A stretch of DNA of 62,524 bases from an uncultured Pelagibacteraceae bacterium (lineage in GTDB: Bacteria > Pseudomonadota > Alphaproteobacteria > Pelagibacterales > Pelagibacteraceae), in assembly GCA_902590365.1 (NCBI GenBank), contig CACIWJ010000002.1, positions 1-62,524 on the forward strand, in the 5' to 3' direction. Positions 696 to 6,547 of the stretch are shown here, one piece after another. Both the position numbers and the translations under genes were made by a program. The notes beneath the pieces were generated by a model. That model worked only from the letters and a program-made list of their open reading frames with translations. It was not told the DNA's origin and did not search any database. The first letter of the stretch is position 1. Every line of letters begins with the position of its first letter.

Positions 696-1505
696 ATGAA
701 ATCTAGTAGTTTTTTTAATATTTTTTTAGTCTTACTAGTAGTATATTTTTTTATATTAATTTTTTTATTTTTTTACCAAAGAAAATTACTTTATCACCCT
801 GGTGAAAATAATTATTTAGATGATGCATCACTAAATCATAAGATCGAAAAAATATATATACCTTCTGATCAAAAATTAGTTGCGTGGCATTTTAAAAAAA
901 ATCCAAAATATAAAACATTGCTCTTTTTTCATGGAAATGCTGGTAAAATTGATAATAGAATTTATAAATTAAATGAACTTTCTAAGCTTGATTTAAATTA
1001 TTTAATTTTTGCATACAGAGGTTTTAGTGGAAATGATGGAAAACCAAGTGAAAAAGGATTGTACAAAGATGCAAGGGCAGTAAAATACTGGCTTAATTTA
1101 AACAATATAAAAGACAGCGAAATAATTTTATATGGAGAGTCACTCGGTACTGCAATTGCAGTTGATTTAGCTAAAGAATTTAATTTTTCTGGAATAATTT
1201 TAGAGTCACCATTTACATCGATGGTTAAGCTTGCTAAAAAATATTATCCTTATTTACCTGTTAAACTTATTTTAAAAGATAAATATGAAACAATAGGAAA
1301 ATTAGATCAAATTAATTCACCAATTTTAATTATGCATGGAGCGAAAGATACTATTGTTCCTTTTGAAATGGGTTTAAAAATTTATGAAATTGTAAATAGT
1401 CCTAAATATAAATACTTTAATGATAATGATGACCACATGATGGATTATAATGAAGATCTAGTTCAATCTATCAGAAATTTTATAAAAACTATTGATATTA
1501 ATTAA
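696..1505 (+). CDS. membrane-anchored alpha/beta hydrolase (BEM46/YfhR-like)
   Basis: The 269-residue protein starts with one strongly hydrophobic helix (about residues 7-27), which should anchor it in the inner membrane. An alpha/beta hydrolase fold follows. The oxyanion-loop motif FFHGNAG, the nucleophile elbow GESLG and the late Asp-containing HGAKDTIVP are all visible. The catalytic His is probably in DNDDHMMDY near the C-terminus. This is the arrangement of the BEM46/YfhR group of serine hydrolases, whose physiological substrates are mostly unknown. The last 8 bases overlap the end of ftsY on the opposite strand. Confidence 0.8.
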   Translation: MKSSSFFNIFLVLLVVYFFILIFLFFYQRKLLYHPGENNYLDDASLNHKIEKIYIPSDQKLVAWHFKKNPKYKTLLFFHGNAGKIDNRIYKLNELSKLDLNYLIFAYRGFSGNDGKPSEKGLYKDARAVKYWLNLNNIKDSEIILYGESLGTAIAVDLAKEFNFSGIILESPFTSMVKLAKKYYPYLPVKLILKDKYETIGKLDQINSPILIMHGAKDTIVPFEMGLKIYEIVNSPKYKYFNDNDDHMMDYNEDLVQSIRNFIKTIDIN

Positions 1506-2415
1506 ATTGAGTAAAAGCTTTTGCAAATTGTTCTGCTTTAAAAATTTCTAAGTCATCTTCTTTTTCGCCCAAACCCAAAGCAATAATTGGTAATTTATAT
1601 TTTTTTGCAATAGCAATTAAAATTCCACCTTTTGCAGTTCCATCTAGTTTAGTCATAATTAATCCTGTAATTGAAATTATCTTATTAAACTCTTCAACTT
1701 GATTAATTACATTTTGTCCAGAAGTTGCATCCAAAACTAATAATACTTCGTGAGGAGCATTAGGATCGATTTTTTTTGTTACATTTGCAATTTTTTTATA
1801 TTCTTCCATTAAATTTTTTTTATTTTGTAATCTTCCAGCAGTATCTATTAAGACATGTGTAAATTGTTTTTTTATAGCTTCATCAACAGCTTTATATGCA
1901 ACAGATGCAGGATCAGAACCTTGTGTTGATTTGATAATTTCTACATCTATTTTTTTAGCCCAATTTTCTAATTGCTCAATGGCTGCAGCTCTAAAAGTAT
2001 CTGATGCTGAAAAAATAACTTTGTTACCATTTGATTTTAATATTTTTCCTATTTTTCCTATTGTTGTAGTTTTTCCTACTCCATTCACTCCTGAAACAAG
2101 AATAGCATTCAAATCACTTTTATTTTTAAAGAAATTCTCATTTTCCAATGGTGACATTAAATTAATTATATAAGTTTTAAGAATTGAATTAATTTCATCA
2201 ACTTTATTTTTATTAGGATCAATTTTTTTTTCTGCAATTATATTTCTAATTTCTGCAGATGCTACGACACCTACATCAGACTGAATTAAAAAATCTTCAA
2301 TTTCATTAAGTGTCTTATCATCTATTTCTTTTTTTATAATTATTTCTTTAAGACCAGATGTAAAAGTAGAAGCACTTTTTTTAAAACCTAATTTAAATTT
2401 TTCAAAAATACCCAT
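1498..2415 (-). CDS. ftsY: signal recognition particle receptor FtsY
   Basis: This is the 305-residue SRP receptor GTPase, which docks Ffh-ribosome complexes to the membrane for co-translational insertion. The N-terminal four-helix N domain (residues 1-90) is followed by the G domain. G1 is GVNGVGKTTT, the substrate-binding insert contains DTFRAAAIEQL, G3 is DTAGRL and G4 is TKLDGTAKGG. It lacks the long acidic A domain of E. coli FtsY, as is usual in alphaproteobacteria. Its start overlaps the dapF stop (TAATG), so the two are probably cotranslated. Its partner ffh is transcribed divergently just beyond dapF. Its 3' end overlaps the upstream hydrolase gene convergently. Confidence 0.96.
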   Translation of the reverse strand: MGIFEKFKLGFKKSASTFTSGLKEIIIKKEIDDKTLNEIEDFLIQSDVGVVASAEIRNIIAEKKIDPNKNKVDEINSILKTYIINLMSPLENENFFKNKSDLNAILVSGVNGVGKTTTIGKIGKILKSNGNKVIFSASDTFRAAAIEQLENWAKKIDVEIIKSTQGSDPASVAYKAVDEAIKKQFTHVLIDTAGRLQNKKNLMEEYKKIANVTKKIDPNAPHEVLLVLDATSGQNVINQVEEFNKIISITGLIMTKLDGTAKGGILIAIAKKYKLPIIALGLGEKEDDLEIFKAEQFAKAFTQFN

Positions 2416-3239
2416 TAAATTTTAATTTTGATTTGATTTATACTAGAAACAGGCCCACTCATTGAAATATTTTCACTTTCATCTATGTATATTGATAGCT
2501 TTCCTAGTTCAAATTCTATTTGAGTTTTATTATTTACTTTACCATTAATTTTTGCAGCATAGGCAGTTGCACATGCTGCTGTCCCACAGGCTTTTGTTAG
2601 GCCAGCACCTCTCTCCCATACTTTAACTTTAATGTGATTCTCATCAATTATTTTTGCTAAAGTGACATTACATTTTTTAGGAAACAATTTATCATTTTCA
2701 ATTTCTGGTCCAATTTTTTCTAAATTAAAATCTTCTATATTATTAATAAAAAAAACAATATGTGGATTTCCAACATTTACTGCAGTGCCTCCAAAATGTT
2801 CTTTATTATTTTTATCAATAATTTTGTAATTTAAATTATTAGTATTAAGCTCTTTTATTAAAGGAATTTCATTCCATTTAGTTTTTGCTGAGCCAATTTT
2901 TGTTTCTACCAATTTTTCTCCTAAAATTTTTGACTCTAAATTTCCAGACTCAGTTTCTAGCATAATCTTATCTTTATTCATTTCTTTTGATAATAAATAA
3001 GCTACACATCTAGTTCCATTTCCACAGGCACCAGATGTACCTCCATCTGAATTATAAAATTCTATACCAGCATCTGTTTTTTCATTTTTTTTTATAAATA
3101 TAAGTTGATCACAGCCAATAAAGTTTCTATTACATATTTTTTTTATTTGATCATTTGTTAATTCAATATGATTATGTCTTTGATCAATGATTACAAAGTC
3201 ATTTCCTAGGCCGTCCATTTTAAAAGCTTTGAATTCCAT
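2415..3239 (-). CDS. dapF: diaminopimelate epimerase
   Basis: DapF (274 residues) interconverts LL- and meso-diaminopimelate for peptidoglycan and lysine synthesis in the cytoplasm. The N-terminal MDGLGNDFVIID signature is present. The two catalytic cysteines lie in SGACGNGTRC (about residue 73) and KACGTAACA (about residue 217), one per pseudo-symmetric half. Length matches the family. It is the first gene of a minus-strand pair with ftsY. Its promoter must lie in the divergent space shared with the ffh leader, where a TATAAT box reads on the minus strand at about 3280-3285. Confidence 0.96.
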   Translation of the reverse strand: MEFKAFKMDGLGNDFVIIDQRHNHIELTNDQIKKICNRNFIGCDQLIFIKKNEKTDAGIEFYNSDGGTSGACGNGTRCVAYLLSKEMNKDKIMLETESGNLESKILGEKLVETKIGSAKTKWNEIPLIKELNTNNLNYKIIDKNNKEHFGGTAVNVGNPHIVFFINNIEDFNLEKIGPEIENDKLFPKKCNVTLAKIIDENHIKVKVWERGAGLTKACGTAACATAYAAKINGKVNNKTQIEFELGKLSIYIDESENISMSGPVSSINQIKIKI

Positions 3240-3261: not shown

Positions 3262-3288
3262 TTGACTTTTTGAAGCTCTATTATAGTT
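3262..3288 (+). promoter_or_regulatory. candidate ffh promoter
   Basis: A TTGACT hexamer (3262-3267) and a TATAGT or TATTAT box (3279-3288) stand just before the GC-rich ffh leader. The spacing is not ideal (15 bases to TATAGT). The overlapping TATTATA element also reads as TATAAT on the minus strand, where it could serve dapF. Position is the main support. Confidence 0.35.
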
Positions 3289-3392
3289 TATCGCAGTTTC
3301 CGCAAAATAAGCAATTTGCGGTGTCTTTGGCAACAAAGAGATCGACACCAGTCAGCGAGGGTTCGCCCACTGGTGCGATGGCTGCTGGGTAA
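3289..3392 (+). ncRNA. structured ffh leader RNA (ffh motif), probable cis-regulator
   Basis: Between the promoter region and the ffh ATG lie about 100 bases with 54 G+C per 100, in a genome otherwise near 30%. They fold into a closed multi-branch structure. An outer stem ATCGCA/TGCGAT (3290-3295 with 3374-3379) encloses three hairpins. The first is CCGCAAA/TTTGCGG (3300-3321). The second is CTTTG-GCAA-CAAAG with a GNRA loop, extended by GTGT/ACAC (3321-3348). The third is CCAGT/ACTGG enclosing GGG-TTCG-CCC (3348-3373). A GCTGCTGGG tail sits just before the start codon. A candidate structured element ahead of the SRP protein gene has been reported from Candidatus Pelagibacter and marine metagenomes; this appears to be that motif. 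Its ligand or protein partner is unknown to me. The ORF-track extension of ffh through this RNA is spurious. Confidence 0.8.
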
Positions 3393-3396
3393 AAAT

Positions 3397-4755
3397 ATGT
3401 TTGAAAATTTGGCAAATAAATTTGAAGAAGTTTTTTCTTCTCTAAAAAAAGCACCGTCACTTGACGAAAAGCAAGTTGATGAAGGACTAAGAGGTATTAG
3501 GCAAGCTCTTTTAGAAGGAGATGTTTCATTGGATGTTGCAAAACAATTCATTGAAAATGTTAAACCAAAAGTTTTAGGCCAAGAAATAATTAGGTCCACT
3601 TCACCAGGGCAAATGGTGGTTAAAATAGTTTATGATGAACTAGTAAAATTGCTTGGTGAAAAAAATGAAGATATAAATTTAAACGCAGTTCCACCAGTTC
3701 CTATGATGTTGGTTGGACTTCAAGGTTCTGGAAAAACAACTACAACTGCAAAATTAGCAAAGTTTTTAGAAAAAAACAAAAAAAAGAAAATTATGATGGT
3801 CAGTCTTGACGTCTATAGACCTGCTGCTCAGGAGCAGCTTAAATCACTTGGCGATCAAAATAATATTTTAACATTACCAATAATTGAAGGGCAATTGCCA
3901 GTGGATATTTGTAGAAGAGCAATTAGTGCAGCAAACCTTAATGGTGCAGAAATAATATTATTTGATACAGCAGGAAGAACTCAAATTGACCTTCAAATGA
4001 TGAGTGAAATTAAACAAATAGAAAATATAATTAAACCAGCTGAAACCTTTTTAGTAGCAGACTCTCTTACAGGTCAAGTTGCTGCAGAAGTAGCAAAAGA
4101 ATTTAAAAATACGGTTAATCTTTCAGGAATTATTTTGACTAGAGCTGATGGTGATGCAAGAGGTGGTGCCGCAGTAAGTATGAAGTATGTTTCAAATGTT
4201 CCTATAAAATTTTTAGGTATTGGAGAAAAAATTGATAATTTAGAAGTTTTTCACCCAGATAGAATAGCGAACAGAATTTTAGGAATGGGAGATATTGTAT
4301 CTCTCGTTGAAAAAGCATCTCAAGATTTAAGTGAAGAAAATTTAAAAAAAACTGAAGAAAATTTAAAAAAAGGTCAGTTTTCTTTAGAGGATTATTTATC
4401 GCAATTACGTCAAATGAAAAAAATGGGAGGAATTGAAGGTGTTATGTCTTTTTTACCAGGCGTATCGAAAATTAAATCACAAATGGAAAATTCAGGAATA
4501 GATGAAAAAATTATTACAGAAAATGAAGCTGTCATTCTATCTATGACAAAAAAAGAAAGAGAAAATCCAAAAATTATTGACGGCTCAAGAAAAAAAAGAA
4601 TTGCTAATGGCTCAGGTACAAATATTGCCACTATCAATAAATTGTTAAAACAATTTAAAATGATGTCTGAAATGATGAAAAAGATGTCGAAAGGAAATAT
4701 GAAAGGAATGGCAGACAAAGGAATTCCGCCAGAACTTTTTAATCAATTAAAATAA
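3397..4755 (+). CDS. ffh: signal recognition particle protein Ffh
   Basis: Ffh (452 residues from the ATG at 3397) is the SRP54 GTPase. It binds signal peptides and 4.5S RNA and pairs with FtsY. The N domain is followed by the G domain, with GLQGSGKTTTTAKLA, DVYRPAAQEQL, DTAGRTQID and TRADGDARGG. The C-terminal M domain is rich in methionine (MMSEMMKKMSKGNMKGM), which forms the signal-peptide groove. I chose the internal ATG because residues 1-27 of the track ORF are translated from the structured leader RNA and resemble nothing in the family. It heads the ffh-rpsP-trmD-rplS group. The 4.5S RNA gene is not in this window. Confidence 0.96.
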   Translation: MFENLANKFEEVFSSLKKAPSLDEKQVDEGLRGIRQALLEGDVSLDVAKQFIENVKPKVLGQEIIRSTSPGQMVVKIVYDELVKLLGEKNEDINLNAVPPVPMMLVGLQGSGKTTTTAKLAKFLEKNKKKKIMMVSLDVYRPAAQEQLKSLGDQNNILTLPIIEGQLPVDICRRAISAANLNGAEIILFDTAGRTQIDLQMMSEIKQIENIIKPAETFLVADSLTGQVAAEVAKEFKNTVNLSGIILTRADGDARGGAAVSMKYVSNVPIKFLGIGEKIDNLEVFHPDRIANRILGMGDIVSLVEKASQDLSEENLKKTEENLKKGQFSLEDYLSQLRQMKKMGGIEGVMSFLPGVSKIKSQMENSGIDEKIITENEAVILSMTKKERENPKIIDGSRKKRIANGSGTNIATINKLLKQFKMMSEMMKKMSKGNMKGMADKGIPPELFNQLK

Positions 4756-4768: not shown

Positions 4769-5284
4769 ATGTTAAAACTGAGACTATCAATGGGAGGAAC
4801 AAAGAAAAGGCCAGTGTACAAAATAGTAGTGGCTGACAGTAGATTTGCAAGGGATGGAAGATTTATTGAAAAATTAGGTTTTTTTAATCCTCTATTACCA
4901 AAAGAAAAAAAAGAAAGAATTGGTTTGCAGCCAGAAAGAATTAAATATTGGCTAGGTCAAGGAGCACAACCAACGCTTCGTGTGGCAAGAATTCTTGGAG
5001 AAAATCAATTAATGCCGATGCCAGAAAAAGGAAATAATCCTTTAAAAGCTATTCCAAAAAAAGATAGGAAGAAAGAAGCTAAAGAGGAAGCTCCTAAGGC
5101 AGAAGAGAAAAAAGCAGATGCACCAAAAGAAGCTCCTAAGGCAGAAGAGAAAAAAGCAGATGCACCAAAAGAAGCTCCTAAGGCAGAAGAGAAAAAAGCA
5201 GATGCACCAAAAGAAGCTCCTAAGGCAGAAGAGAAAAAAGCAGATGCACCAAAAGAAGCTCCTAAGGCAGAAGAGAAAAAATAA
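4769..5284 (+). CDS. rpsP: 30S ribosomal protein S16 with a long repetitive C-terminal tail
   Basis: The first 80 or so residues are ordinary S16 (MLKLRLSMGGTKKRPVYKIVV, then GFFNPL and the LGQGAQPT segment), a small-subunit assembly protein. The protein is then extended to 171 residues. An Ala/Lys/Glu/Pro-rich, probably disordered tail is built from the unit [14 protein letters not shown], repeated four times plus a partial fifth copy. Typical S16 is about 80-100 residues, and alphaproteobacterial S16 often has a shorter charged tail. The repeats are identical at the DNA level. The downstream neighbour is trmD, with only 2 bases between; the rimM gene usually found here is missing. Confidence 0.95.
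   Translation: MLKLRLSMGGTKKRPVYKIVVADSRFARDGRFIEKLGFFNPLLPKEKKERIGLQPERIKYWLGQGAQPTLRVARILGENQLMPMPEKGNNPLKAIPKKDRKKEAKEEAPKAEEKKADAPKEAPKAEEKKADAPKEAPKAEEKKADAPKEAPKAEEKKADAPKEAPKAEEKK
5087..5281 (+). repeat. 42-bp in-frame tandem repeat in rpsP
   Basis: Four identical copies of a 42-base unit (starting gaagctcctaaggcagaa) begin at 5087, 5129, 5171 and 5213. A truncated fifth copy at 5255 runs into the stop codon. The unit is 14 codons, so copy-number change keeps the frame. Perfect identity, including third positions, implies very recent expansion or homogenisation by slippage or recombination. Confidence 0.95.
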
Positions 5285-5286
5285 AT

Positions 5287-5976
5287 ATGTTTGTTGCTAC
5301 TGTTTTCACTCTCTATCCAGATTTATTTCCAGGGCCTTTTAGTGAAGGCTTATATGGAAAGGCATTAGAAAAAAAAATATGGAATTTACAAAAAGTAAAC
5401 TTAAGAGATTATGCAGAAGACAAACATAAAACTGTTGATGATACGCCGTATGGTGGTGGATCAGGTATGTTAATTAAGCCAGATGTGATTGGCAATGCAT
5501 TGGATAAAAATACAAAAAAAGGTGAAAAAATAATATTTTTAACACCAAGAGGAAAAGTATTTAATCATGAATGTGCTAAAAAATTTTCGCAAGAAAAAAT
5601 CATAAATATAATTTGTGGACACTTTGAGGGAATTGATCAAAGAGTTATAGACTCAAGAAATATTGAGGAAATTAGTATTGGTGATTTTGTTTTATCTGGT
5701 GGTGAAACAGCATCTTACGTTTTCTTAGACGCGATTTTAAGATTAATTCCAGGAGTTATTGGTAATGAAAATTCAGTTGCAGAAGAAAGCTTTGAAAATG
5801 GACTTTTAGAGTATCCTCAATACACAAAACCTCAAATTTGGGAGAAAAAAAGTGTGCCCAATGTCCTTTTGTCAGGAGATCATGCTAAAATTAAAGACTG
5901 GCGTTTACTCCAATCTGAGGCTATAACACGCGACCGTAGGCCAGATTTATGGCAAAAATATAATAAAAAAAATTAA
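5287..5976 (+). CDS. trmD: tRNA (guanine-N1)-methyltransferase TrmD
   Basis: TrmD (229 residues) methylates N1 of G37 in tRNAs that read CNN codons, preventing +1 frameshifts. The SPOUT fold signatures are clear: [14 protein letters not shown] at the N-terminus, [12 protein letters not shown], the knot segment [12 protein letters not shown], and [10 protein letters not shown]. The C-terminal RRPDLW is also typical. It follows rpsP after 2 bases and precedes rplS, the conserved S16-TrmD-L19 order. Confidence 0.96.
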
Positions 5977-5992
5977 TTTGACTAACTTAAAA

Positions 5993-6547
5993 ATGAAAAC
6001 AATTGAAGAAATTAATCAGGCTAATGTTAAAAAAATAGCTGCAGAAAAAAAACTGCCAAATTTTTCTACAGGAGATATTGTTAAAGTTGGCGTCAGAATC
6101 ACAGAAGGAAAAAGGGACAGAATTCAGTATTTTGAAGGAGTTTGTATTGCAAAAAAAAATAGAGATATCAATTCATCTTTTACGGTTAGAAAAATATCTT
6201 TTGGAGAGGGAGTTGAAAGAACATTTGCACTTTATAGTTCAATAGTTGACTCAATAAAGGTTATAAGATCAGGTAAAGTAAGAAAAGCTAAACTTTATTA
6301 TTTAAGAGATAGAACTGGTAAATCAGCAAGAATTGCTGAAAAAATAAAAAAGAAAATTGGTATTGAGATAGATACTAAACCAGAACAAGTTACTGAAGAA
6401 AATGTTGCTCCTCCTGTAGTAGAGAAAGCAACTACTGAAGCTCCAAAAGCTGAGGTTCCAAAAACTGAAGCTCCAAAAGCTGAGGTTCCAAAAACTGAAG
6501 CTCCAAAAGCTGAAGAAAAAAAAGAAAGTTCAAAAAAGAAAAAATAA
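5993..6547 (+). CDS. rplS: 50S ribosomal protein L19 with repetitive C-terminal tail
   Basis: The core ([56 protein letters not shown]) is standard L19, which sits at the 30S-50S interface. Family members are normally about 115-130 residues; here a tail of about 60 residues extends it to 184. The tail is rich in [10 protein letters not shown] units followed by [12 protein letters not shown] prefer the ATG at 5993; the track's TTG at 5978, one base after the trmD stop, is an alternative that adds five residues. The tail resembles that of S16 in the same operon in composition and motif, although its DNA repeat is different. Confidence 0.93.
6434..6511 (+). repeat. 30-bp in-frame tandem repeat in rplS
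   Basis: The unit actgaagctccaaaagctga(g)gttccaaaa occurs in two identical copies (6434-6463, 6464-6493) and a partial third. It encodes [10 protein letters not shown] and keeps the reading frame. Confidence 0.9.

Follow-up and report, generated by a model that had tools for sequence, protein, structure and literature searches.

The stretch of DNA analysed here, referred to as the window, comprises 62,524 nucleotides from an uncultured member of the Pelagibacteraceae. Near its beginning, a leader RNA is placed between dapF, on the minus strand, and ffh, whose start codon is at 3397, which bears out the original prediction of a leader ahead of ffh. The G+C richness predicted for it also holds, with 51% in 3300–3399 as compared with 19–40% in the neighbouring 100-base intervals. 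The features of the locus are as follows.

1498–2415, minus strand: ftsY
2415–3239, minus strand: dapF, the upstream neighbour of the leader
3262–3289, plus strand: predicted promoter, assigned by conservation (−35 TTGACT at 3262–3267, 16-base spacer, −10 TAGTTT at 3284–3289)
3300–3321, plus strand: hairpin P1 (CCGCAAA...UUUGCGG), from the minimum free energy (MFE) fold and inspection of SAR11 sequences
3320–3343, plus strand: hairpin P2 (GGUGUCUUUG-GCAA-CAAAGAGAUC), from arm-swap covariation
3346–3375, plus strand: hairpin P3, the RF01793 hairpin, from the Rfam match and covariation
3384–3388, plus strand: tail element GCUGG, from conservation, 9–13 nt past P3, with 8 nt left between it and the start codon of ffh
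3397–4755, plus strand: ffh (SRP protein), the first operon gene, with a PF00448 match at 3703–4284 and a PF02978 match in the same genome
4769–5284, plus strand: rpsP, an open reading frame with homologues after the motif at other checkable loci
5287–5976, plus strand: trmD, likewise
5978–6547, plus strand: rplS, likewise

The ffh start codon lies 21 nt past the end of P3. The products of rpsP (window 5020–5284) and rplS (window 6360–6547) both carry a long C-terminal tail of repeated Ala/Pro/Lys/Glu-rich units. The bacterial SRP (4.5S) RNA (RF00169), partner of the protein encoded downstream of the leader, has its own gene elsewhere in the genome, on contig C14, where it scores 38.4 bits, slightly under the family cut-off.

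A covariance-model search of the window against Rfam, the check suggested with the original prediction, gave RF01793 ('ffh') as the sole match, at 3331–3383, with 55.6 bits against a gathering cut-off of 35 and covering model positions 1–52 of 52; RF00169 gave no match in the window. The ffh motif was first reported in 2009 between dapF and ffh of Candidatus Pelagibacter ubique and described as one bulged hairpin with two conserved C residues, for which a role in ffh regulation was suggested (Meyer et al. 2009, PMC2704228). The Rfam match and this earlier description confirm that the leader is the Pelagibacter cis-regulatory candidate to which the original prediction referred, and it is a member of the published RF01793 family. 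Motif and window have the P3 hairpin, the place before ffh and the organism group in common, and the two conserved C residues of the bulged hairpin are C3353 and C3368. RF01793 lies above the cut-off in 114 of 150 relatives. Among 289 Alphaproteobacteria genomes, 80 have it at E ≤ 0.001, and most of those sampled have no match. Whereas the Rfam model is a single bulged hairpin, P2, the promoter and the tail come in addition here; and whereas the family is known before ffh, it additionally stands before rpsP in the bacteria of the PS1 clade, an exception to its usual place that is described below.

The MFE fold of the leader contains three hairpins, as originally predicted, and is better than expected by chance whether the RNA begins at 3295 (−36.2 kcal/mol, z −3.2) or at 3287 (−43.9 kcal/mol, z −4.2), neither fold being equalled by any of 200 shuffles. 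For two of the three hairpins, P2 and P3, covariation across Alphaproteobacteria can be added. Our alignment A1 holds 88 diverse leaders, 16 from SAR11 family f1, 10 from its sister family f2, 8 from PS1 and 54 from other Alphaproteobacteria; the permutation tests (arm swaps and shuffles) all ignore kinship among the sequences. P1 is present throughout the SAR11 sequences inspected, and the evidence for it is confined to SAR11 relatives, one of which (L084) carries a compensatory change (CCACAAA/UUUGUGG) and another (L050) a different stem. The last two G residues of P1 double as the first two bases of P2.

P2 has a CUUUG/CAAAG core with a GNNA loop in the window and the general form GGUC...GAUC in most clades. 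Its arms fit their own partners far better than swapped ones, with z −13.6 pooled over 105 sequences and, clade by clade, z −4.6 in f2, −3.6 in PS1 and −7.3 in other Alphaproteobacteria (kinship ignored throughout). The hairpin lies outside the Rfam structure, since only its 3′ half is covered by RF01793, where it is modelled as unpaired. P2 adjoins P3 on the 5′ side, with two bases between them.

P3 is built from an outer helix CACCAGU/ACUGGUG, the C3353–C3368 mismatch, A3354–C3367, an inner helix GCGA/UCGC and a GGGU loop. This hairpin is beyond doubt: in the 88 leaders, 11 of its 12 pairs show two-sided change (156 cells), 93.8% of cells are paired, none of 500 shuffles does as well, and every slid alternative to the pairing register fails. 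Both positions of the mismatch are C in 86 of the 88 leaders. The position beside it, A–C in the window, is C–G in 13 leaders, G–U in 4, U–A in 4 and G–C in 2; because it pairs in these 23 leaders, the core of P3 is a single C–C mismatch next to a variable position and not the two-base bulge of the Rfam model. With regard to the loops originally predicted, the GNRA loop stands as the GCAA of P2, but the proposed UUCG tetraloop is contradicted by the covarying pairs of the inner helix, its letters being the loop edge and the 3′ arm of GCGA/UCGC.

The tail takes the general forms GYUGG and GYUUGG/GUUUGG. In all four clades, position 4 past P3 is U in 80–100% of leaders and position 11 in 88–100%, followed by GG in most, and in the GC-rich clades the tail is U-rich relative to the sequence downstream (p 5e-6). 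The distance from the end of P3 to the start of the Ffh match ranges from 6 to 292 nt (median 52) in other Alphaproteobacteria, and the short spacing in the window, where the tail was originally suggested as a possible control of ribosome access, is therefore not general. Judged by comparison of sequences, the conserved module consists of P2 and P3, which abut, and a GYUGG tail behind them.

A TTGAC-16/18-TA pattern occupies the corresponding position upstream of the motif in 81 of the 88 leaders, as compared with 2.4% of shuffles, and the −10 element ends 43–69 nt before P3 in all but three of them. Transcription in the window is predicted to start at about 3295–3297. The ffh promoter has an almost unchanging spacer (TTTTGAACCTCTATTA) across SAR11 family f1, and the bases right after the −10 element vary freely. 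SAR11 starts have been mapped in a marine differential RNA-seq study.

The closing stem that had been predicted to enclose the hairpins finds little support in this analysis. It folds only when the RNA starts upstream of about 3290, and a start at the predicted 3295–3297 would cut off most of its 5′ arm. When its covariation was checked across SAR11 leaders, as had been proposed, the arms in the ATCGC/GCGAT and TTA..GCAG/CTGC..TAA registers matched their own partners scarcely better than exchanged arms did (z −1.4 to −1.7, p 0.05–0.08, kinship ignored). An extension of P3 (AUCG/CGAU), considered as a switch against P2, shows no covariation in any clade (p 0.15–0.88). MFE folding alone draws both the closing stem and the extension; covariation backs neither.

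In almost every genome, ffh follows the motif. Downstream on the same stretch, rpsP is present at each motif locus whose length allows a check, all PS1 loci included, and the invariant companion of the motif is therefore rpsP, not ffh. At non-SAR11 loci, trmD and rplS follow in nearly all cases where the stretch reaches, and extra genes are sometimes inserted between ffh and rpsP; one locus whose contig ends at once (L233) was left out of this set. Plasmid-borne copies of the motif, considered as an ffh-free context, were set aside. There are five such records, all from Paracoccus, and the one examined, from Paracoccus denitrificans (NZ_CP141053.1, 494850–494911; L272), carries the motif with Ffh, S16, TrmD and L19 on a 1.7-Mb replicon that is filed as a plasmid and is in effect a second chromosome.

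In three genomes of the class sample, the motif is followed by rpsP and not by ffh. Their family, which in the collection is the whole order, comprises 18 genomes (G183, G289, G370 and G433–G447; loci L142–L154, L058 and L175–L189 except L180), and its named copies lead to the PS1 clade or 'OCS116 cluster'. L180, a 'Gammaproteobacteria' match to the PS1 pattern, has neither the leader nor any operon gene and was rejected. The motif is kept in 14 of the 18 genomes. The order is dapF, motif, rpsP, trmD and rplS, contiguous and without ffh, with dapF flanking wherever the contig reaches; at one locus (L178), the gene beyond dapF is of the radical-SAM kind, with UPF0004 and Radical_SAM domains, and ftsY was not found. 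The PS1 copies retain the promoter and show compensatory changes, and the P3 arms within PS1 still fit their own partners (z −3.2, p 0.0016, kinship ignored). Since P2 and P3 pairing is kept in PS1, the element is under structural selection there without SRP.

In the 18 PS1 genomes, which are drafts with a completeness of 55–97%, a protein search found no Ffh. The SRP54 GTPase domain (PF00448) is over the cut-off in 0 of 18, with one sub-threshold fragment of 20.5 bits, and hence there is neither Ffh nor FtsY; the SRP M domain (PF02978) and 4.5S RNA were also found in 0 of 18. Control searches were positive; SecY was found in 14 of the 18 genomes and in 6 of the 6 most complete, and PF02978 is present in 365 of 387 Alphaproteobacteria sampled. 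A single assembly gap could remove both Ffh and FtsY elsewhere in a genome, because they are neighbours in many relatives; the PS1 locus itself is contiguous. The PS1 clade thus appears to lack the entire SRP pathway (Ffh, FtsY and 4.5S RNA). A leader that responds to SRP should be accompanied by SRP wherever it is kept, and PS1, with the element in 14 of 18 genomes and these three components in none, departs from this pattern.

Searching the open-access literature, we found no paper that brings together 'PS1 clade' and 'signal recognition particle', and complete loss of SRP in PS1 appears to be unreported there. The loss is testable, since the taxonomy includes PS1 strains (IMCC14465, Ca. Micropelagius) and such strains have been cultured. 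Five other Alphaproteobacteria that are 93–99% complete (G204, G385 and G481, from one genus and 2.5–3.6 Mb in size, as well as G463 and G255) also have no PF00448 or PF02978 match. Either additional SRP losses or assembly gaps could account for this, ffh and ftsY often being neighbours.

Structure, promoter position, operon linkage and, in PS1, independence from SRP are all shown at the level of sequence comparison, and the leader probably acts in cis on the operon, with no requirement for SRP. Conserved and structured, it leads an operon with a ribosomal-protein gene, rpsP, at every checkable locus. We tentatively regard it as most likely an autogenous ribosomal-protein leader (bS16, with bL19 as second choice) of the ffh-rpsP-trmD-rplS operon; what binds it, in which direction expression changes and at which step (translation, termination or stability) we infer. 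Transcribed from its own promoter, the leader would make up about 100 nt at the 5′ end of the ffh-rpsP-trmD-rplS mRNA. Free bS16, or else bL19, would bind P2/P3 and thereby lower expression of the operon, and ffh would be co-regulated because it is the first gene.

We favour bS16 because rpsP adjoins the leader in PS1 and because a bS16 leader has been proposed in Flavobacteria. The flavobacterial candidate stands before rpsP, with proposed binding of bS16, as we propose here (PMC7247131); it differs in belonging to another phylum and in lying directly upstream of rpsP, usually with rimM, and the two are likened by description alone. bL19 is a possible ligand. The Firmicutes L19 leader (mentioned in PMC7247131) serves a ribosomal protein, encoded by rplS, that is also encoded in this operon, but it has no Rfam match in the window, and rplS is a distal operon gene in Alphaproteobacteria. 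RimM is an unlikely ligand because rimM is absent between rpsP and trmD both in the window (5284–5287) and at the PS1 locus L178 (4935–5045); it is present in another PS1 genus (L235).

Our assignment is tentative because the identity of the first gene is an unreliable pointer to what a ribosomal-protein leader binds (PMC7247131), because no rRNA mimicry was found and because the distance to the start codon is variable. Such mimicry of the protein's rRNA site is frequent, though not universal, among leaders of this type. The search for it used one short, crude pattern, the simplest P3-like internal loop, which has no match in E. coli 16S and 23S rRNA. Owing to the variable distance (6–292 nt), a single fixed translational block is unlikely, and control of termination or stability is equally possible.

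It is rather unlikely that the leader acts without a ligand, with P1–P3 stabilising the 5′ end of the mRNA or forming an RNase processing or pausing site and the tail aiding translation initiation. Such a purely structural role would agree with the variable start-codon distance and with the fact that no single alternative fold is backed (p at least 0.15 for the P3 extension and 0.05–0.08 for the closing stem), but the near-invariant C–C mismatch and the conserved tail resemble a recognised sequence and not bare stability.

Autoregulation by Ffh or SRP RNA, put forward in the original prediction, would have free Ffh (or SRP RNA) bind the leader and repress ffh. The position of the motif before ffh in nearly all genomes and the role proposed by Meyer et al. 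are in its favour, and SAR11 P3 shares, by eye, ACCAG-UCAG with domain IV of E. coli 4.5S RNA (ACCAGGUCAG). However, other clades do not retain these shared letters, one form of P3 there being CGUCCGUCCGCGA, and Meyer et al. saw no resemblance between the motif and the Ffh site of 4.5S RNA (PMC2704228). With the likeness limited to SAR11 letters and no RF00169 match in the window, we do not favour mimicry of SRP RNA. Above all, the motif is kept before rpsP and still covaries in PS1 after loss of Ffh, FtsY and 4.5S RNA; this makes it improbable that the conserved function is to sense Ffh or SRP RNA, and this part of the original prediction is unsupported. Outside PS1 the leader might still have an Ffh-specific role, ffh being the first gene in most lineages.

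We also consider it doubtful that the leader is a separate small RNA (the Rfam type is 'sRNA'), cut or terminated after P3 and acting in trans. Its transcripts occur in metatranscriptomes, as Meyer et al. cite (PMC2704228), Mesorhizobium RNA-seq also shows them (PMC5596092), and the GC-rich clades have a U-rich tail after P3, with runs of at least four T in 18 of 54. Against this, there is no terminator after P3 in the window, the SAR11 tail is not a U run, and the element is always tied to the same operon in the same orientation. P3 was likewise rejected as an intrinsic terminator, as no U run follows it in the window or in SAR11 and only some of the other clades show a U-rich tail. A metabolite riboswitch, in which P2 would compete with the extended P3 or the closing stem, is highly implausible: AUCG (3341–3344) can pair with CGAU (3377–3380), breaking the base of P2, and the MFE fold uses this pairing, but the extension is without covariation in any clade, the element has only a short conserved core, and it lacks an associated biosynthetic gene.

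The P3 hairpin before ffh was already known; added here are P2, the promoter, the tail, the resolution of the C–C mismatch and the motif before rpsP in PS1. Returning to the autogenous ribosomal-protein leader, we raise the speculative possibility that the 'ffh motif' is misnamed and is an autogenous regulator of the alphaproteobacterial rpsP-trmD-rplS operon, which, where it stands before rpsP, marks the deletion of ffh in the free-living marine PS1 clade without SRP. An RNA family that has been described but not explained would then shift from possible SRP feedback to a ribosomal-protein operon leader. Such a leader is of interest because a recent review states that no regulation is known for the E. 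coli counterpart, the trmD operon (PMC10931766). A free-living clade apparently without SRP bears, in addition, on SRP-independent insertion of membrane proteins.
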